This document shows, piece after piece, positions 15,276 through 25,617 of a stretch of 31,494 nt of DNA. The first letter of the stretch is position 1, and every line of letters starts with the position of its first letter. Under the pieces are notes generated by a model. That model was not told the DNA's origin, searched no databases, and saw only the letters and a program-made list of their open reading frames with translations. The translations under genes were made by a program, and so were the position numbers. Origin of the DNA: a virus; the IMG/VR virus record IMGVR_UViG_3300042301_001347, positions 1 through 31,494 of that record. One strand, 5' to 3'.

Positions 15276-18200
15276 ATGACATTGCGCGCACCCATCTTTG
15301 CTGACCCAACGATCACCCCCGTCCAGGAAGAGGCGTTCACCGCCTCTGGGATGAACCCCATCCGCCGGGCCTACAACGCCAGCCGGATCGGTACCGACAT
15401 CAACAGTCTGGCCGCGCAGGAGGCGACCCAGCGTGCGATGGGCGACACTGCTGCCGCCGACGCGAACCGCGCACAGATCACTGCGCTCCAGCAGCGCCAG
15501 AGTGCATACGCCCCGGACGTTGGCCGGGTCGAGAACATCAAGGGCGTGGGCGACGCCTTCTCCTGGCTCGGTACCCAGATAGGGCAGGGCGCAGGGTCGA
15601 TGCAGGACCCCGTGGCGCTCGCTACCGGGCTGACCGCCGCAGGGAACCTTGCCGGTGCCATCCCCCACCCGATTGCCCGTGGTGTGGGTACCGCACTGAA
15701 GCTGGCCGCGCCAGTCGGTGCGTTCGGTATCAACCAGCGCCAGATGACAGGCGACTTCTACAACCGGGTGCAGGGTGACCCGGAGGTCACGGCCAAGTAC
15801 AGCCCGCAGGAGCTGGCGCTCACCGCCAACGCCTACGGCGCGGGCGCAGGTGCTATCGACACCGTGCTGCCGACTGTGGTGGGCCGTCAGCTCGGCGGCA
15901 GCTTCCTGCGCAAGGGGCTGAGCAACACGGGCATGGGCACGAAGATGGGCGTGGGCCTGCTGGGTGAGGGCACGACCGAACTGGCACAGGACGGTGGCGC
16001 ACTGGCGCTGCACAGCTACATGAATCCGAACCGGGACACCAGCGGCGACGCCATGGACCTGGTGAACTCGTTCGCCGGCGGCATGGCCGGTGCGAGCCCG
16101 TTCGTCACCGCCGGTGCTGCGGCAGAGCACGTGTCTCGCCGTGTCGGGCACACAGCGGGCGTCGTGTCCGAGAAGACCGGTGAGGTGGTCGACCTCTTGA
16201 GCGAGAAGGCTGAGCCCTACGTCGAGAAGGGCAAGGGCAAGCTGGAGAAGGTCATCGACCTGTTCCGCAACGACGACGGCGACGTGACACCGAAGTCGGT
16301 CAAGGACAAGGTCATGGGCACAGCCCAGGACATGAAGGCGAAGCTCGACGAGCACGAGCTGATGAAGGGTATGCCCCCGGCAGACATCCTGAACGACGAT
16401 GCTGCGTACGCCGCATGGTTCGACGAGACCACACCCAAGCGCCGTGACGCGGTGCTGAACCGTCTGGCTGATCTGGCCGACGAGGGTGACGAGAAGGCCA
16501 CCGACCTGTACACACGGTTCGGGCAGGTCCAGACTCAGGGTGAGCAGGACCAGATCATCAACGAGGGTGCCGAGCACGTCCTGAGCCAGAACGAGTGGAC
16601 GGAGCTGGAGAAGCAGGCCCAGGCCCATGCGAAGCAGGCCGGGCGTCTGGTGAACCGGTTCGGCAGCATGTTGGGCAAGGGTGCCCGTGCTGCTGGCAGC
16701 GCCGCGATGGACTTGGGCAAGGCCGCTGTGTCTGGCTTCAAGGGCGACAAGAAGAACATGCAGATCGACCCGTTCGAGCAGGTGCTGGCTGACCAAGCCC
16801 TCGAAGGTGGCAAGGAGCACGTCGCCGGGCTCAAGCAGCAGGCCGAGCGCGAGAAGAGCTACCAGCGTGCGAAGGTCATGAGCGAGTTCCTCGCCGCCGA
16901 AGCCAAGTCTGCCATGGAGGGGCGTGGCTACGGCCAGAACGTTGAGGGCGCAATCAACGTGTCGCCGAGCATGGCAAACCGTACCGGCGGTACGCGCATG
17001 CCAGCAAAGTCGTCTGAGGCGATGACCAACTTCATGAAAGACATCGGCCTGGAGATCGCCGACATCGCCGAAAACTGGATCACGCCCCGTCCGGCCAAGG
17101 CCAAGACGGGCAACGCGCCGACGGGTCCGACCTCCACCTTGAAGCAGCCAGCTGACTCCCGTGGCCAGCAGTACGACGGCCTGCAGTTCAGTATGAACCG
17201 CATCGTCAACAGCCTGCGGGTGATGTACAAGGACCGCGCTGGCGACGTGATCAACGAGCTGCAGTCGATGGTTGACCCCAAGGCTGCGCCGATGTTCGAC
17301 GTGATGCGTGAGGAACTTGAGGCGCAGCAGAGCCCATCGGGCATGCGCCACACGGCCAAGGCCCGTGCTGCCGCGCAGGATGCGCTGATTGGTGCGCTCG
17401 GGCAAGAGACTGAGGCCAAGCTGATCGACCAGGGCGTGAACCTGCGCACCCAGGACGGCAAAGATTCCCTGCTGAAGATGGTCGAAGCTGTCGACCGCGG
17501 CATCGCACCGCCCCACGCCGTCAAGGCGCTGGAGGGACTGATCGGCAAAGAGAACCTGCTGAACCTGCGCCGCACGCTGCGCCCGCAGCAGGCCAGCCGT
17601 GACGACCTCATGGAGGACGACGGCGAGACCGTGGGCGAGGGCCTGGAGGTCGATGGCGACTCCGGCGAGGTGAGCGTGGCCCGGCAGTCGAACTTCGACA
17701 AACGGCAGGCCGAGAAGAAGGTCGAGCGCACCGGTGCCAGCCGCATGTACGGGTTCAAGGGTACGGGTACCGTGCGCTCGTCCGACGGTGCCAAGCGCGA
17801 CCCGTTCGCCCCCGAAGGCCGCATCACGTATCAGGACACGCTGAAGGCTGAGGACGAGATGATCCAGCGCCTTGCCGCTGGCGAGACGTATGAGCTGCCC
17901 AAGGGCCTGCGTCGTCCGACGCTGACGAAGAAGGGCGAGAAGACATTCGATGGCCGCGACGCCAGCGAAGTGGCGCGGCAGCGCCTGTCGAAGATGATCG
18001 GTGGCGAGTCCAATGAGCGGCTGGTGCGGAACCTGCTGGAGAGCGGTGACCCCAACGAGGTCAAGGCCGGTGAGATGGCGCAGGCTGCTTTGAGAGAGCT
18101 GGCCACAGCACGTAAAGCTGGAGACACCGACAAAGCCACGGCGATCGAAAAGAAGCTGGGTCAGTGGCGTCAGCGCATGTTCGGCGACCAGAGCCGTGGC

Positions 18201-21200
18201 GGCGAGTGGGATGTCCAGACCCGCAACGTGCTGGAGGTTCTGCGCGAAGAGGGCGCGGACGACCTCCGCATCCTGAGCCTGTACCGCGACTACGCCCGCA
18301 TGGAGATGGTGGCTGCGAAGGACCCAGCCGAGCGGGCGAGGCTACAGAACATCATCGCCCTGCTGCGCCCAGCGATCGTGGACAAGGCTGACGGGAAGAA
18401 AGGTGGCGCAGGCGCCCCACGTCTGTCGCCCGCCGAGCACTCGAACATGATGCGGCTGGCTGAGCGGTACTTTGGTGACCGTACGATGGCCGTGGCTGAG
18501 CAGCACTCCGACCGTACGCCCGAGAAGATGTCCGCCGGTCAAGTCACTGCGATGGCGTCGTTCGGCAAGGCTGCGATGGAGTTCGCCCGCAAGGTCGAGA
18601 ACACCCAAGGCAAGCAGGCTGCGAACGAGTACGTCGCCGACCGGAACCTGATTCAGTTTGCTGGCAATGACGGCAAGCCGTTCCACATCCCTGCTGGCCG
18701 TCTGGTGCTGTGGGGCAAGAAGGAGCTGGGTCAATACTTCGAGCCAGCCAAGGCCGACAAGTACGACAACTACACCCGCAACCTTGAGTACCTCGGTGCG
18801 CTGACGCTGGGTATCAACGCCGTGCGCGAGAGCGGCATGGTGGCGCTGACGAAGACTGGCGACGGCAAGTACGTGCCGGGCGGCGTGTCCATCGCCGACA
18901 AGTTCGGCCGGATGCAGGAGTTCCGCGCTGACACGAAGCCTGCGAAGGGCAGCACGGAGTTCGGCGACCTGTTCGACGGCCTGCCCGACAACCTGATGCT
19001 GGCCACGACGAACGTGTTCGGCTTCAAGAAGATGATGGCCAGCCGGAAGATCAAGCCGACATCTGAGGCCCAGGACCTGTTGACCAAGCTGCGTGAGTGG
19101 CGCGATGAGGCATTCGTTCCAGGGGACGAGGGCATCGAGGCGATCCCCGAGAGCCTGAAGTCTCGCAACGCCGGCACGCTGCTGCGGAACAACGTCGTCG
19201 ATGAGGAACGGCTCAACGACAAGGACGCGGGCGGCTTCGATGACATGGGCCGGTACCAGCCCGGTGTCACACCGTCTGACCGGGACGGTGCCAACCCTGA
19301 CCGCATCCAGCACGCCAAGGCGAACAAAGAGACCGGCTTCGACGCCGCCGCCATCCCTGCTGGTCTGGGCACAGAGCGCCGGATCGACGCCGGGAAGAAA
19401 GCTGCCGCACGTGGCCAACAGCTCGTCGATGCTCTTGACTCTAACTTCGACGACGGCATGAAGGTGCTGGACTCGCGCATGCGGATGGCAAAAGCCCCGG
19501 CATTCAACGCCAACGACCCGAACACCGTGCGCGGCGGCGCACACTACGCACTGCCTGTGCTCGAAGCCCTGACCGACGAGAACCTGTCGAACATGGACAT
19601 CGACGCCGAGCAGGCCAGCAAGCTGGTCGCCATCCGCAAGGAAGCGCAGAAGCTGGTGGCTGAGTCCGACCTGAGCAACACGGTGAAGTCGACTTACGCC
19701 CCCGCCGGGGAGGTCGGGGCCAGCCTGGGAAAGCCCAGTGGGGTGGGTGAGACCACCGGACGGAAGTTCAACCGGCAGATGTCCGAGCAAGACATCATTG
19801 AGCAGCTGGAGACGAGCGGCTTTGAGGAGCTGATGCGTGCTGTATCAGACGGCAAGCCCGGCGCTGAGAAGCTGGCGTTTGCTGCCACCGGGCTCACACA
19901 AGACCAAGCGACAGGAGAGTGGCGCAGCGGCAGCATTGACTTGGCAGCGTTCCGTACTGCAGCCGACAAACTGGACTTGCCGATCTCCAAGCACTGGCTG
20001 GGTATGCTGGGTATGCTGCCTAAGCTCAACGCCCAGTCAGGCCAAGCCAAGGACGAAGCGGTGCTCGACCGGGCCAAGGCCATCAACGAGATTCGCGCCA
20101 CTCTTGGCAACGACATCACCATCCGCTTCGAGCAGACCACCGGGTTCTCCGGTGCCTACCTCGACCAGGAAGCGGCCATTGTCATCTCCCTGACCCCTGC
20201 CGCCGGTACCCTCCAGACCGCCTACCATGAGGCGCTGCATGCGTTCGTGGCTCGGCTGGTCAGGGGCAACGACAAGGCCAAGCAGGTGCTGGACGCCCTG
20301 GCCAACCACGGGCCGACCATGGAGCGGGTGGTGGCGCTGCTGGACGGCTACCCAGAGGCCATAGCCCAGCTCAAAGACGGGGAGGAGAGAATAGCCTACG
20401 TCTATCAGTTCTGGCGAGCCGGTTTACTCGATCTACCGACCCCAGAAGCCACCACGATGCTCCAGAAGCTCACGAAGTTCTTCCGGGCTGTGCTGGGCAG
20501 GGTAAGCGATTTGGAGCGCGGGAACGACCTTCTGAGGGCCTTCGCGAGGGGGTCCTACGCTGGCGACCCGTCCGTGGCGGGCAAAGTCATGGCAAAGCAC
20601 CTGAATGAGGGTGCCTGGGGTGCCAAAACCCTGCGCAAAATGGACGGTCTGGTGCAGCACGTAGCCGCCCTGACCATGCCCGCTCATTCGGTGCTGGCGA
20701 CCAGCAAGAGCGTAACTGCTCAAAAATTAGGCAACCAGCTCTGGACGAACCCCGGCGAGGGTGAGGACGGCAGCAAGGAAGAGGGCTACCTCAACGCCCG
20801 GGAGCGGATGGCCAAGCGGTACTCCAACGAGTTCAGCCGGATCATGGCGTTCGGTACCGAGCGCGACCACGCTGCGGTCATCGACTACCTCCAGAAGGAG
20901 ACCGACCCGGCGACCATCCCGTACGCCCCGCACCGCGAGGCTGTGGAGAAGATCAGGGGCCTGCTGCAGCGGTTCCGCAAGTACATGGTCGAAGAGCGCG
21001 GCATGAACATCGGTGACCGTGGGCCGCTGTACTTCCCCCGCGTGTGGAGTGTGGCGAACCTTCAGGAAAAGCGCGACGACTTCATCGAGATGATGGAGAA
21101 GGAGTACCCGATGTACAACGCCGAGGGCGTGTACAACGCGCTGATCAAGCGGTACTCGGTCGAGGAGTCCGCAGTGGGCGAGGGTGTGGTTGATGACGAC

Positions 21201-22628
21201 GCCGTGCTCAAGCCGACACAGGGTGCCGGTAACGAGCGGATTCTGGACGTCATCACCGGCGAGCACGCTGCACCGTTTCTGGAGAAGAGTCTGGTCGGCA
21301 CGCTGACCCGGTACTTCCACGAAGGTGCCCGTGCTGCGGAGTACACCCACAGGTTCGGCCAGAAGGGTGAGGCTCTGGCCGGGACCCTGGGCCAGATCAA
21401 CCAGGAGCTGCGGATCGAAGCGAGCAAGATGCGCAAGGACGGTGTGCTGGCGGATCAGGACGCTGAGACCAAGTGGGTCGAGCGCCAGATGCGTGACATC
21501 CGCCGCTCAGTGGACGCGATGGAGGGCACGCTGGGCCGGGACATCGGCGAGGGCTGGCGCAAGGCGAGCAGCTGGGCGACCGTGTACCAGAACGTGCGCC
21601 TGCTGCCGATGGCGCTGTTCAGCTCAATCGTTGACCCGTTGGGGATGGTGGCCCGTGGCGCGACGATGAAGGAGGCGTTCGACGCGTTCCTCCAGAGCAC
21701 GGGCGAGGTGTTCAGGAACTGGAAGGAGATGATCGTCGGCAAGGGCGATGAGGCCCGCCTGCCTGATGAGTGGGAACGTCTGGCCATGGCCGTGGGGTCG
21801 GTCGACGCTGCGGTGTTCAACCACCACGTGTCCGATGAGTACGCGTCTGCGTTCATGACGCCGGGTGCGAAGAAGGTCAACGACTTCTTCTTCAAGGCCA
21901 ACGGCATGGAGGCGTGGAACAAAGGGATGCGGGTGGCAGCGACACGGTCGGCTGTCAACTTCATCCTGCGGCACAGGACTGGGCCGGAGACACACAGCGT
22001 GCGCTGGCTGGAAGAGATCGGGCTGACACCGGGCGACATCCACGTTGATCCAGAAGGCCGACTGATCACCGACAAGCACACCCTGGCCGCGCAGCTCGGA
22101 ATCACAAAAGAGCAGGCGGCTGGGAAGGTCGAGAAAATCCACATCGCGATCAACCGCTGGGTGCAGGGTGCCGTGCTCACGCCGAACGCTGCGCAGCGGC
22201 CTGCATGGTCGAGTGATCCGCACTGGTCGATGTTCTTCCACCTGAAGCAGTTCGCGTACAGCTTCCACCAGACGATCCTGAAGCGTGCGGTCAATGAGCT
22301 GGAGTACGGCAACCTTGGGCCGATCGGCGCATTCATCTGGTACGTGCCCGTGATGATCGCGTCCGACCTCATGCGCGGGTTGATCCAGGGCGGTGGTGAG
22401 CTGCCGTCACACATGCAGGGCATGGACGCTGGCGACCACATACTGAGGGGCCTTGAACGCAGCGGCGTGTTTGGTATTGGTGTGGTCGGCGTGGATGCCG
22501 GGCAAGACATTGCCTCACTTGGCGGGCCAGCAGTCGAGCAGATCATTGATGCGATGCGCGACCCGTTGGAGCGGACCATGATTAAAGCGGCGCCTGCACA
22601 TGGTCTGTACGCTGAAGCATTGAGGTGA
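15276..22628 (+). CDS. 2450-aa giant internal virion protein with metallopeptidase motif
   Basis: ATG 15276 has an AAGGAG ribosome site. The N-terminal third starts helical and then has Gly/Ala-rich apolar stretches (about residues 95-290) with an EGTTELAQD motif common in giant phage virion proteins. The middle is long, charged and helical. At residues 1651-1655 the sequence TAYHEALHAF gives an HExxH zinc-binding motif. Glu1703 or Glu1704 in GEERIAYVYQ is a plausible third ligand. This is the pattern of the zincin domains described in phage polyvalent proteins. The C-terminal region (about 2095-2450) has conserved-looking blocks such as QNVRLLPMALFSSIVDPLG and a hydrophobic stretch near residue 2348. 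As the last and largest late gene it is probably packed in the head and ejected into the host. It could process virion or host proteins. Confidence 0.78.
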   Translation: MTLRAPIFADPTITPVQEEAFTASGMNPIRRAYNASRIGTDINSLAAQEATQRAMGDTAAADANRAQITALQQRQSAYAPDVGRVENIKGVGDAFSWLGTQIGQGAGSMQDPVALATGLTAAGNLAGAIPHPIARGVGTALKLAAPVGAFGINQRQMTGDFYNRVQGDPEVTAKYSPQELALTANAYGAGAGAIDTVLPTVVGRQLGGSFLRKGLSNTGMGTKMGVGLLGEGTTELAQDGGALALHSYMNPNRDTSGDAMDLVNSFAGGMAGASPFVTAGAAAEHVSRRVGHTAGVVSEKTGEVVDLLSEKAEPYVEKGKGKLEKVIDLFRNDDGDVTPKSVKDKVMGTAQDMKAKLDEHELMKGMPPADILNDDAAYAAWFDETTPKRRDAVLNRLADLADEGDEKATDLYTRFGQVQTQGEQDQIINEGAEHVLSQNEWTELEKQAQAHAKQAGRLVNRFGSMLGKGARAAGSAAMDLGKAAVSGFKGDKKNMQIDPFEQVLADQALEGGKEHVAGLKQQAEREKSYQRAKVMSEFLAAEAKSAMEGRGYGQNVEGAINVSPSMANRTGGTRMPAKSSEAMTNFMKDIGLEIADIAENWITPRPAKAKTGNAPTGPTSTLKQPADSRGQQYDGLQFSMNRIVNSLRVMYKDRAGDVINELQSMVDPKAAPMFDVMREELEAQQSPSGMRHTAKARAAAQDALIGALGQETEAKLIDQGVNLRTQDGKDSLLKMVEAVDRGIAPPHAVKALEGLIGKENLLNLRRTLRPQQASRDDLMEDDGETVGEGLEVDGDSGEVSVARQSNFDKRQAEKKVERTGASRMYGFKGTGTVRSSDGAKRDPFAPEGRITYQDTLKAEDEMIQRLAAGETYELPKGLRRPTLTKKGEKTFDGRDASEVARQRLSKMIGGESNERLVRNLLESGDPNEVKAGEMAQAALRELATARKAGDTDKATAIEKKLGQWRQRMFGDQSRGGEWDVQTRNVLEVLREEGADDLRILSLYRDYARMEMVAAKDPAERARLQNIIALLRPAIVDKADGKKGGAGAPRLSPAEHSNMMRLAERYFGDRTMAVAEQHSDRTPEKMSAGQVTAMASFGKAAMEFARKVENTQGKQAANEYVADRNLIQFAGNDGKPFHIPAGRLVLWGKKELGQYFEPAKADKYDNYTRNLEYLGALTLGINAVRESGMVALTKTGDGKYVPGGVSIADKFGRMQEFRADTKPAKGSTEFGDLFDGLPDNLMLATTNVFGFKKMMASRKIKPTSEAQDLLTKLREWRDEAFVPGDEGIEAIPESLKSRNAGTLLRNNVVDEERLNDKDAGGFDDMGRYQPGVTPSDRDGANPDRIQHAKANKETGFDAAAIPAGLGTERRIDAGKKAAARGQQLVDALDSNFDDGMKVLDSRMRMAKAPAFNANDPNTVRGGAHYALPVLEALTDENLSNMDIDAEQASKLVAIRKEAQKLVAESDLSNTVKSTYAPAGEVGASLGKPSGVGETTGRKFNRQMSEQDIIEQLETSGFEELMRAVSDGKPGAEKLAFAATGLTQDQATGEWRSGSIDLAAFRTAADKLDLPISKHWLGMLGMLPKLNAQSGQAKDEAVLDRAKAINEIRATLGNDITIRFEQTTGFSGAYLDQEAAIVISLTPAAGTLQTAYHEALHAFVARLVRGNDKAKQVLDALANHGPTMERVVALLDGYPEAIAQLKDGEERIAYVYQFWRAGLLDLPTPEATTMLQKLTKFFRAVLGRVSDLERGNDLLRAFARGSYAGDPSVAGKVMAKHLNEGAWGAKTLRKMDGLVQHVAALTMPAHSVLATSKSVTAQKLGNQLWTNPGEGEDGSKEEGYLNARERMAKRYSNEFSRIMAFGTERDHAAVIDYLQKETDPATIPYAPHREAVEKIRGLLQRFRKYMVEERGMNIGDRGPLYFPRVWSVANLQEKRDDFIEMMEKEYPMYNAEGVYNALIKRYSVEESAVGEGVVDDDAVLKPTQGAGNERILDVITGEHAAPFLEKSLVGTLTRYFHEGARAAEYTHRFGQKGEALAGTLGQINQELRIEASKMRKDGVLADQDAETKWVERQMRDIRRSVDAMEGTLGRDIGEGWRKASSWATVYQNVRLLPMALFSSIVDPLGMVARGATMKEAFDAFLQSTGEVFRNWKEMIVGKGDEARLPDEWERLAMAVGSVDAAVFNHHVSDEYASAFMTPGAKKVNDFFFKANGMEAWNKGMRVAATRSAVNFILRHRTGPETHSVRWLEEIGLTPGDIHVDPEGRLITDKHTLAAQLGITKEQAAGKVEKIHIAINRWVQGAVLTPNAAQRPAWSSDPHWSMFFHLKQFAYSFHQTILKRAVNELEYGNLGPIGAFIWYVPVMIASDLMRGLIQGGGELPSHMQGMDAGDHILRGLERSGVFGIGVVGVDAGQDIASLGGPAVEQIIDAMRDPLERTMIKAAPAHGLYAEALR

Positions 22629-22808: not shown

Positions 22809-22934
22809 TCAAGGCTTCGTGTGGGCCTTGATCCACCGCGCCGTGCCGTGGGCGACGATCATGATCCCCACTGCTGCACGCAGCGCCTTGTACGCTGCGC
22901 GGATGACACGGACGATTGAAAAGAAAAGCATCAT
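22809..22934 (-). CDS. Short hypothetical amphipathic protein, 41 aa
   Basis: A 41-aa reading frame starting at ATG 22934, in an ATGA overlap with the stop of the upstream gene and preceded by GGAG. The product starts with MMLFFSIVRVIRAAYKALRA and has a second apolar stretch (VGIMIV), giving a basic amphipathic, possibly membrane-associated peptide. The coupled start and ribosome site support it as a real gene. I do not recognise it. Confidence 0.5.
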   Translation of the reverse strand: MMLFFSIVRVIRAAYKALRAAVGIMIVAHGTARWIKAHTKP

Positions 22935-23209
22935 GGTTCGTTCTCCAGTTTGACGGTTGTTGTTTCCCAGCTCTCGTCGGTGATGACGAGCACGCGGCCC
23001 TGACTTGGGTCAGTGGGATCGACCGGGTATCTCGAAATGATTTTGTCCACGACCTTCAACGCGTGCAGGTTCGCTTTGAGTTCTTTGACTGTCGCCAGCC
23101 CGTGATCGTTGACTGCGTGCCGGGCCACAAGGTCCAGTGGTGTGCGCTTCAGTTTGAGCCGTGCGGCCTCGGAGACCTTCAGCGTACCGAGTAAAAAATT
23201 CGCGTGCAT
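22931..23209 (-). CDS. Hypothetical protein resembling plasmid-related small proteins, 92 aa
   Basis: The start is chosen at ATG 23209 because a GAGG ribosome site lies 5 nt upstream; an in-frame GTG at 23215 would overlap that site. The protein has an ARHAVNDHG segment, a KANLHALKVVDKIISRYP segment and a RVLVITDESWETTTVKLE segment. This order (ARH.. G, N..AL...I.S.Y, RV.VIT....TT..L) resembles a family of short proteins annotated as plasmid-related on mobile elements. Their function is unknown. It lies just left of attP and is the first gene transcribed away from it. A DNA-handling or excision role is possible, but no helix-turn-helix is visible. Confidence 0.65.
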   Translation of the reverse strand: MHANFLLGTLKVSEAARLKLKRTPLDLVARHAVNDHGLATVKELKANLHALKVVDKIISRYPVDPTDPSQGRVLVITDESWETTTVKLENEP

Positions 23210-23213
23210 ACTC

Positions 23214-23240
23214 ACCTCGTGTCATAGTTCGATGTCATAG
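23214..23240 (+). promoter_or_regulatory. Left-arm direct repeats of attP (integrase arm-binding candidates)
   Basis: Two TGTCATAG copies start at 23220 and 23233, 13 bp apart and in the same orientation. The first is part of ACCTCGTGTCATAG, which recurs exactly on the other side of the tRNA core at 23424-23437. Paired short direct repeats flanking the core are the usual arm sites of tyrosine integrases. They also lie immediately upstream of the leftward gene at 23209. Confidence 0.65.
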
Positions 23241-23281: not shown

Positions 23282-23328
23282 CCTTGACATGGTGGGGGTC
23301 GTTGGTTCGAGTCCAATCGCGCCTACCA
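23282..23328 (+). other. attP: attP core: 3' half of tRNA-Val(GAC)
   Basis: The segment reads as the anticodon loop TTGACAT (anticodon GAC), the 3' strand of the anticodon stem (GGTGG), a GGGTC variable region, the T-arm GTTGG-TTCGAGT-CCAAT, the acceptor strand CGCGCCT, discriminator A and an encoded CCA ending at 23328. The 5' half of a tRNA is missing: bases before 23282 do not form D-arm or acceptor partners. This is what is expected when a phage carries the part of a host tRNA gene that is restored on integration. The cognate integrase is encoded 700 bp away. It is not an intact tRNA gene. Confidence 0.85.
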
Positions 23329-23344
23329 AACACCCAAATAAAAC

Positions 23345-23378
23345 AAGGGCCTGTTCAATGAACGGGCCCTTTGTCTTT
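23345..23378 (+). terminator. Strong hairpin terminator after the attP core
   Basis: AAGGGCC-T-GTTC pairs with GAAC-G-GGCCCTT around an AAT loop: twelve pairs including one T-G wobble, 23345-23371. It is followed by TGTCTTT on the plus strand. On the minus strand the stem is followed by TTGTTTTATTTG, so it can act in both directions. It would end the leftward integrase-region transcript and, after integration, could serve the restored tRNA gene. Confidence 0.75.
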
Positions 23379-23414
23379 GGTAGATCGAACAGCGGTTCAG
23401 CCTGTTCTGATCAA

Positions 23415-23437
23415 TCGTGTCATACCTCGTGTCATAG
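23415..23437 (+). promoter_or_regulatory. Right-arm direct repeats of attP (integrase arm-binding candidates)
   Basis: Two CGTGTCATA copies have their TGTCATA cores starting at 23418 and 23430, 12 bp apart and in the same orientation as the left-arm pair. The second copy belongs to a 14-bp sequence identical to 23214-23227. They end just before the stop of the leftward gene at 23432. Confidence 0.65.
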
Positions 23438-23779
23438 CCCTTTGAGTGCCCTGAGTGATTCGAGGTACTCATACAGGTCGCGGGGCATCCGATAGGTCAC
23501 ATCGAATATGGCCCTGACCTCAACTACCCGCGCACCGGCGACATATTCGTAGTCCACGTTCGACGAGCTCATGCTCCTCGGGTACTTCTCGACCATCTCC
23601 TGGATCGTCGGCAGGTCGACCCGGTCATGCGGACCACGCATCCTGCCGGCCAGGCGAAGCGGCTCAAGTCTCTGATGATGAATGGTTCGCTCTAGCATCG
23701 CGAATTGTTCGTCGCGCACGGCTCTGTCGTACGCCGTCATCGGCATCACGGTTTTGTAGAGATCGTGGTACTGGCTCAT
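23432..23779 (-). CDS. Hypothetical protein, 115 aa
   Basis: ATG 23779 is in an ATGA overlap with the stop of the upstream 87-aa gene. The protein is charged and mixed alpha/beta. It has an Arg/Glu-rich helix around residues 18-40 and a C-terminal helix YEYLESLRALKGL. It has no Cys, signal peptide, membrane helix or recognisable motif. It is the last gene before the attP terminator and is co-translated with the integrase and the 87-aa protein. That location is common for recombination directionality factors, but no winged-helix or helix-turn-helix signature is apparent. I do not recognise it. Confidence 0.65.
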   Translation of the reverse strand: MSQYHDLYKTVMPMTAYDRAVRDEQFAMLERTIHHQRLEPLRLAGRMRGPHDRVDLPTIQEMVEKYPRSMSSSNVDYEYVAGARVVEVRAIFDVTYRMPRDLYEYLESLRALKGL

Positions 23780-24039
23780 ATCTCCCCCCTCAGTTTGAGC
23801 AGCGTTTGTATGCGGACCACGTCATCCTCCGTAACGATCGCCCGCACTTTGAAGTCGCATTCGATCTCGACGAAATTTTTTGTCGACGGTGAGCGCGTCA
23901 CGGAGCCTGGCCACGTTCGTGCCGACGCCATCTTGATCATGTCTGTGACTGTGATGACGGCTACCGGCTCATTGACGTTAGTCACGTTTTTGGCAATGAG
24001 GGGGGCGGGGTAGACGGAATTCGGGAGCATGTTTATCAC
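23776..24039 (-). CDS. Hypothetical protein, 87 aa
   Basis: ATG 24039 overlaps the integrase stop by 4 bp, and its own stop overlaps the next ATG, so the three genes are translationally coupled. The product has two beta-like segments (PVAVITVTD and FVEIECDFKVRAIVT) and a short C-terminal helix. It is small and moderately basic in the centre. I see no known domain. An accessory role in recombination is only suggested by its place directly behind the integrase. Confidence 0.65.
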   Translation of the reverse strand: MINMLPNSVYPAPLIAKNVTNVNEPVAVITVTDMIKMASARTWPGSVTRSPSTKNFVEIECDFKVRAIVTEDDVVRIQTLLKLRGEI

Positions 24040-24995
24040 GGCTTCTTCCTGTTGTTGTCAGCGAACTGTGCGAGGTAGCCCGCTGAGTGGTGGGCGTAGG
24101 TCATGACCATGCGAAGGTCCGCCCACCCACCGAGCTTCTGCAGGACGTCTACGGGTGTCCCGTTCTGGATGTGCCACGTGGCCCATGTGTGTCGTAGCCC
24201 ATGCCAGGTAAAACTTGGCAGACCACTATCCCGCTTCGCTTGCGCGAATCCTTCTTTAGGCTTTGCCATCGGCCGACCGCGGTACGCAAAGACGAACTCA
24301 TGATGCTTCCCGGCTTCGGCCTTGATAGCTTCGAGTGCCGCATCATTGAGCGGTACTGGAATGCCTGCTCCCGCCTTCGCGTCCTCTGCTGCGACAACCA
24401 CATGTCGACGTCCGAGATCGACGTTCTTCCATCTGAGCCCAAAGACATTTGCTTGCCTTAATCCAGTCTGCACAGCCACCATGGCTGGGCCTTTGAGGTG
24501 TTGGGGTAGGGCGGCATAGAGCCGGTCCCACTCGTCGTAGCTCAACCATTTGCGTGCTTTGGGTTTCTTGTCCTTACGGACAGGCACTCGTGGTACCTCG
24601 GTGATGAGGTTGTTCTTCTTGGCCAGATTGAGCACGGCCACGAGCATGGCGCGGTACCGGTTGTACGTTCCGGCTGTGCCACAGAAGGAGAGGGCATTCG
24701 CGATGTCCCCGCCTGTGACGCTCTTGATGGGCCTGTCTTTGAAGTGCCTGTGGAACTTGGCCAGACTCAGAAGTTCTGAGTCCGACCGTCGTGCCTCGCG
24801 CTTCCATGCGGTGACCGCGTCGGACCACATACCACCTGTCGAGGTGTCAATCCATGCTCCGGCCTTCGCCGCATCATGGACCCGCTGTGCGGCGGTCTTG
24901 TCCGTCTCACCCGTGGACCGTCTGATCCGTGGTCTGTCCGGGAACGACAGGCTCATCCACCAGACTTCCGACCCTTTCTGCTTGTACAGCGTCAT
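24036..24995 (-). CDS. int: Tyrosine recombinase integrase
   Basis: The 319-aa start at ATG 24995 is chosen because a GAGGAG ribosome site precedes it; the frame is open further upstream but only as overlap with the dUTPase gene. The N-terminal part (about residues 1-60) is short and basic, as in arm-binding domains. A core-binding helical domain covers about 55-145. The catalytic domain shows Arg180 in TGLRQANV, Lys207 in the beta-hairpin AEDAKAG, His265 and Arg268 in HGLRHT, Trp291 in LGGW (often His) and Tyr300 in MTYAHHS as the nucleophile. It catalyses site-specific recombination between attP (23282-23328) and a host tRNA-Val gene. The 5' end overlaps the dUTPase 3' end by 89 bp. Confidence 0.96.
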   Translation of the reverse strand: MTLYKQKGSEVWWMSLSFPDRPRIRRSTGETDKTAAQRVHDAAKAGAWIDTSTGGMWSDAVTAWKREARRSDSELLSLAKFHRHFKDRPIKSVTGGDIANALSFCGTAGTYNRYRAMLVAVLNLAKKNNLITEVPRVPVRKDKKPKARKWLSYDEWDRLYAALPQHLKGPAMVAVQTGLRQANVFGLRWKNVDLGRRHVVVAAEDAKAGAGIPVPLNDAALEAIKAEAGKHHEFVFAYRGRPMAKPKEGFAQAKRDSGLPSFTWHGLRHTWATWHIQNGTPVDVLQKLGGWADLRMVMTYAHHSAGYLAQFADNNRKKP

Positions 24996-25617
24996 GGTTA
25001 CTCTCCTCGTAGGCGGCGTCCAGCAACGCCATGAGAGGGTCATAGCTGATGCCAGGGTTCTCAGCCAGCAGCACGGACAGGACCTCGTTGTCCTCCAGAC
25101 CACCCCACATCTTGCGGTAGGTGCCGTCCTTGTACCCGCGCTTCTGCCTGAAGTGGTTCAGGACGTTCTTGCCTATGTACATCTCGAACAGCATCTCGTC
25201 GGTGAGTTCGAGGCGCTGGGCGATCACGTACATCACGTCGAGGGCGACCTGCCCGTTCATACCGGCGGCGGAGCCACACACCTCGATGAGCCGTGGTGTG
25301 GGCACGTTCTCCGTATCCATCTGGCTGGGTCCCCAGCTGCTCAGCACCGCGTTGGCCGCAGCCTGGATGTCACCCTCGAACGCCGCCAGGATGTGCGACA
25401 GGGCGAAGTGCCAGATGTCCACGAACTCGAGTTGCGCCTGCTTGAGGTTCAGCTCCTGGTGCTTCCACCACTTCCATCCGACGTGGTCGAGCAGCTCGCC
25501 CGACTCGACGAAGATGGCGCGAGTCCAGTCGTAATCAGCGTTGATCCAGTCAGGGTTCACCGCGCAGTTCATTTTGTGCTGCAGCTGGAACATCTCGATA
25601 AGTTGGCCGGGGTTCAT
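24907..25617 (-). CDS. Dimeric-type dUTPase (all-alpha NTP pyrophosphatase)
   Basis: A 236-aa protein starting at ATG 25617, in an ATGA overlap with the homing endonuclease stop. Near the N-terminus are Glu38 and Glu41 (ESGELLDHVGWKWWK), then Glu64 and Asp67 in EFVDIWHFALSH. The ExxE plus ExxD arrangement and the DH.G.KWWK block are diagnostic of the dimeric dUTPase/dCTPase family. This family hydrolyses dUTP to dUMP and pyrophosphate with magnesium, lowering uracil incorporation and feeding dTMP synthesis. The length fits the family. The C-terminal 29 codons overlap the integrase coding region in a different frame. Activity on dCTP as well cannot be excluded from sequence. Confidence 0.9.
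   Translation of the reverse strand: MNPGQLIEMFQLQHKMNCAVNPDWINADYDWTRAIFVESGELLDHVGWKWWKHQELNLKQAQLEFVDIWHFALSHILAAFEGDIQAAANAVLSSWGPSQMDTENVPTPRLIEVCGSAAGMNGQVALDVMYVIAQRLELTDEMLFEMYIGKNVLNHFRQKRGYKDGTYRKMWGGLEDNEVLSVLLAENPGISYDPLMALLDAAYEESNHDAVQAERVGSLVDEPVVPGQTTDQTVHG

Follow-up and report, generated by a model that had tools for sequence, protein, structure and literature searches.

A predicted attP site in the 3' part of tRNA-Val(GAC) in a little-known phage lineage

Known systems and the tRNA-Val(GAC) core

A passage of the Islander work (PMC4383910; Williams 2002 cited therein) describes class A as integrative elements with an anticodon-centred attP in tRNA genes, and the mycobacteriophage Boilgate has its attP in tRNA-Lys(TTT) (PMC10865867). 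The general mechanism of tRNA-restoring integration is already well described. The locus compared here with these systems lies in a 31,494-base viral record, a linear 31.5-kb fragment referred to as the window. The literature searched described neither its phage lineage nor its integrase subfamily, and offered no direct precedent for its att site.

The 47-bp segment CCTTGACATGGTGGGGGTCGTTGGTTCGAGTCCAATCGCGCCTACCA occurs a single time in the window, at positions 23282-23328 on the plus strand, and equates to the 3' portion of tRNA-Val(GAC), beginning at the edge of the anticodon stem and ending in CCA. It consists of the final two bases on the 5' side of the anticodon stem and the loop TTGACAT (anticodon GAC), followed by the 3' anticodon-stem strand, the variable loop, the T-arm, the 3' acceptor strand and CCA. 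Identity with the tRNA-Val(GAC) genes of many bacteria is exact and begins inside the anticodon stem, two bases before TTGACAT, as it likewise does in the relative G251; it extends through CCA, as in a tRNA-restoring attP. Among the fetched bacterial loci, the 47 bp form the end of an intact tRNA-Val(GAC) gene at 117/119 sites, and with a random expectation of approximately 3e-24 for a given 47-mer, a chance match is negligible. No 5' half accompanies the core: the 30 bases upstream match the tRNA-Val 5' half at 6/30 positions, ARAGORN detected no tRNA in the window, and Rfam recovered no family at gathering score.

A tyrosine integrase is encoded on the minus strand at 24036..24995 (PF00589, 8e-31; phrog_1, 1e-52), with intact catalytic motifs (TGLRQANV, HGLRHT and YAH) and a gene end, at 24036, situated 708 bp from the core. 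Its frame is open to 25103 (24036-25103, minus strand), and alignment with relatives suggests a start at 24995 (MTLYKQ; MALYKQ in the G077 counterpart). The 3' end of the integrase gene faces the core, and the CCA end of the core faces the integrase, so that the regenerated tRNA would sit at the integrase end of the prophage. Two open frames on the minus strand, one of 115 aa between the integrase and the core (23432..23779) and one of 87 aa overlapping the integrase stop (23776..24039), belong to no PHROGs or Pfam family and have no homologue among the fetched loci. Virion genes occupy the window to the left of the core, while the integrase, NTP pyrophosphohydrolase, HNH endonuclease, DNA ligase and exonuclease genes lie to the right. 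The virion genes include one for a 2450-aa protein (15276-22628, plus strand), of which the C-terminal third is approximately 30 % identical over 849 aa to a structural protein of the phages KPP25 and phiR18. For a 630-aa structural protein, no confirmed relative was found in viral contigs.

The sequence-only reading had proposed an attP core in the 3' half of tRNA-Val(GAC), with an anticodon loop, T-arm and CCA end on the plus strand, no 5' half, a tyrosine integrase approximately 700 bp away, and phage genes on both sides. Each of these elements was recovered, the flanking genes being structural on the left and of DNA metabolism on the right, and relatives use the same tRNA. Positions 23282-23328 thus almost certainly serve a temperate tailed phage as its tRNA-Val(GAC)-restoring attP site, with a predicted function of the integrase and arm sites. 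Their reading as an ordinary anticodon-class, tRNA-restoring attP in a little-known phage lineage is well supported by the sequence comparisons.

Integrase relatives and integration at tRNA-Val(GAC)

Three relatives were found by the integrase alone, at approximately 50 % amino acid identity or more (49-55 %, two aligners). These comprise a viral contig (L239) and two genomes sampled from the family of a Variovorax (G077 and G251; Burkholderiaceae). The tRNA-Val(GAC) core is located 0.45-1.1 kb downstream of the integrase in 3/3 of these relatives, as an attP in two and at an integrated prophage in one (G077). Back-translated integrase peptides searched against viral contigs found only L239, and the other relatives were obtained through core or genome searches. 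ARAGORN calls a tRNA-Val in L239, which was rejected as a tRNA gene and is taken as an attP, given a 5' part agreeing with that of a tRNA at only 19/30 positions and phage-type genes beyond it.

The G077 contig C113 carries an intact tRNA-Val(GAC), bordered on one side by the integrase together with syntenic phage genes and on the other by a short-chain dehydrogenase and a DnaG-type primase (judged from translations), and is read as the attL of an integrated prophage. The attR of this prophage is read in contig C161, which holds the 3' tRNA fragment only, preceded by phage sequence with a homologue of the small protein p94 described below. The host flanks, once joined, align to Curvibacter sp. 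PAE-UM (L091) and to L028, where an uninterrupted tRNA-Val(GAC) lies between them and represents the empty site. A relative is thus integrated at tRNA-Val(GAC), one end of it bearing the intact tRNA and the other only a fragment. The predicted integration locus, for which related prophages at the same tRNA had been named as support, is well supported by the two junctions and the uninterrupted site elsewhere, and we infer that this particular phage would also integrate at tRNA-Val(GAC). No lysogen of the window phage itself was detected, and an integrase search in 47 core-bearing genomes returned one weak match, at another tRNA.

The 21 integrases with 34-40 % identity to that of the window are located at tRNA-Met, -Lys, -Asn, -Arg or -Phe, or where no tRNA was found, with 0/21 at tRNA-Val. 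A tree built from 37 integrases places the window within a thirteen-member clade (support 100/98), all members of which are located at tRNA-Val(GAC), most having been fetched via the core and only L239, G077 and G251 being free of that selection. The HxxR motif is mostly HGLRHT within this clade and mostly HDLRHT outside it. L171 and L157 lie outside the clade yet use tRNA-Val(GAC), which indicates repeated adoption of the site.

The 65.7-kb contig C105 of G251 has identical 141-nt ends (circular phage contig) and presents the same order as the window, with the integrase, the core lacking a 5' half, and a homologue of the 2450-aa virion protein. The earlier statement that the window is not from an integrated prophage stands for this DNA, with the proviso that a tandem-prophage junction would give an identical sequence. 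By geometry, two tandem prophages of this phage would share an attP-like middle junction, indistinguishable in sequence, and the window could then represent their chromosomal border. This is very improbable, as such records contain fewer tandem prophages than free phages and the G251 relative has the same arrangement within one 65-kb circle; the site would, in any event, still be an attP. Phages are known to carry tRNA genes and tRNA remnants, and the segment could be imagined as a phage-encoded tRNA-Val gene which has decayed, losing its 5' half, and is unconnected to integration. There is scarcely any likelihood of this, however, considering that the 47 bp have zero mismatches and are cut at the anticodon stem, that the same cut and unrelated 5' flanks occur beside related integrases in other phages, and that one relative is integrated exactly at tRNA-Val(GAC). 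Although the integrase type and tRNA target are alike, tRNA-dependent lysogeny, where the host tRNA is broken on integration and replaced by a phage-borne tRNA of its type (PMC10865867), can be dismissed as next to incredible, since the 47-bp core restores the entire 3' part to CCA, ARAGORN shows no phage tRNA in the window, the combination of a too-short core with a same-isotype phage tRNA is not found there, and the tRNA at the G077 attL is intact.

Repeats, hairpin and small frames flanking the core

Paired direct repeats flank the core on the plus strand. In the P arm these are TCGTGTCATAG (23217..23227; recovered by repeat scan, pattern search and geometry in relatives) and TCGATGTCATAG (23229..23240), in which GTCATA is found 13 bp past the GTCATA of the first repeat. 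The P' arm contains TCGTGTCATAC (23415..23425) and a further copy of TCGTGTCATAG (23427..23437), both recovered by repeat scan and pattern search. Counted from the core, the GTCATA repeats of the window are positioned at -61 and -48, and counted from CCA at +91 and +103, compared to -67, -54, +107 and +120 in L239 and -68, -55, +94 and +106 in L148, with similar positions in G077 and L161/L145. The longer motif CRTGTCATA is present in three copies in the entire window, all near the core, and 0/100 shuffles reach three. Several clade members lack the motif or have another form of it, among them G251, L156/L215, L236 and L129. Most simply, the paired repeats would represent putative arm-type integrase sites.

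A terminator-like hairpin of twelve pairs with a T-rich tail is located 16 bases past CCA (23345..23371, plus strand; fold z-score of -4.3 for 23329-23385). Using one fixed rule, a terminator at most 75 nt past CCA was identified at 11/14 att sites of the clade, in comparison to 131/2100 random windows (6 %), while 48/94 distinct host downstream regions were positive by the same rule. According to the control of the scan, a surplus or shortfall of one terminator-like site in 1.5 kb is unremarkable, and the terminator claim thus depends on the fixed position in the relatives. The phage seems to bring its own putative terminator for the rebuilt tRNA gene.

On the opposite side of the core from the integrase, a conserved small protein of 94 aa (p94; 22931..23215, minus strand) is encoded with its start abutting the P arm. 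Homologues occur near the core in seven relatives (L239, 6908-7189; G077, contig C161, 176-451; L145, L156, L161, L215 and L129), and the frame as read from the match contains a stop codon in L156 and L215. No sequence family was found for p94, nor a PDB fold match for its good model (mean pLDDT of 87). Its candidacy as an excisionase was rejected on these grounds, with just two weak matches, to unnamed viral proteins. Adjoining p94 is a conserved open frame of 41 aa, MMLFFSIVRVIRAAYKALRAAVGIMIVAHGTARWIKAHTKP (22809..22934, minus strand), with homologues occupying the equivalent position in L239, G077 and L161. It is conceivable, albeit rather unlikely, that the attP forms part of a conserved module of an integrase subfamily dedicated to tRNA-Val(GAC) (HGLRHT), comprising the arm sites, the core, a built-in terminator replacing that of the host, and p94, which may control the direction of recombination.

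With the core as a tRNA-restoring attP, the integrase would bind the putative paired arm sites flanking the core, and the anticodon stem would supply its core-type sites. The phage core would recombine with the identical sequence in the host tRNA-Val(GAC) gene, with a crossover presumably within the anticodon loop. The host 5' half and the phage 3' half would then form an intact tRNA at the integrase end, where it would precede the predicted terminator of the phage itself, and the displaced host 3' fragment would mark the far end of the prophage.

Host range of the core and comparison with known systems

The exact core is present in 121/201 Burkholderiaceae, 11/148 Pseudomonadaceae and 10/299 Pseudomonadota genomes sampled. 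At least 118 bacterial loci contain it, and the matches listed, among them Pseudomonas and Methylococcales, include 72 betaproteobacterial, 41 gammaproteobacterial and five unassigned loci. The search of the 47 bp against bacterial genomes thus returned exact tRNA-Val(GAC) 3' ends as had been anticipated, while the expectation of a narrow host group failed. Determination of the host from the core alone was rejected, since exact matches span the beta- and gammaproteobacteria. The placement of the host among the betaproteobacteria is nevertheless likely, on the basis of the enrichment of the core in Burkholderiaceae and the occurrence of both cellular-genome relatives in this family.

Among viruses, at least 119 stretches incorporate the core, with Pseudomonas-type downstream sequence at 78 sites, and a relative of the window integrase is within reach in only fourteen fetched viral loci. 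A large set of viral contigs (L120-L238) shares the core and the Pseudomonas-type downstream sequence, mostly with no relative of the window integrase in the fetched stretch. The many core-bearing viral contigs without a related integrase mark tRNA-Val(GAC) as a target that unrelated elements share. In 24 Pseudomonas tRNA-Val(GAC) genes (L008, L019, L021, L025 and others) the 5' acceptor strand AGGCACG opposes a 3' strand CGCGCCT, giving an A5-C68 mismatch. The origin of this C68 from integrated elements was unsupported, with no integrase-like frame within 3 kb at the four loci inspected. As the 47 bp span beta- and gammaproteobacteria and are used by unrelated elements, a core made of a tRNA fragment is, taken alone, a poor guide to the host. 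The attP does fix the place where a little-known phage lineage probably integrates, and shows this phage to be equipped for lysogeny.

In comparison with the Islander class A elements (PMC4383910), no essential difference is apparent: the attP carries the 3' tRNA part from the anticodon region, a tyrosine integrase is encoded, and integration would restore the tRNA and displace a 3' fragment. Unlike Boilgate (PMC10865867), the window has a different tRNA and different hosts, and its repeats and hairpin were compared within its own clade. The integrase shares with those of the lambda type its catalytic motifs, and the paired direct repeats flanking the core would fit arm sites; it differs in having a tRNA gene as its target and in the motif HGLRHT. 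Furthermore, the 2450-aa virion protein resembles that of the Pseudomonas phages KPP25 and phiR18 in its C-terminal third, the only region matched, and besides this KPP25/phiR18-like virion region the window also encodes an integrase and an attP.
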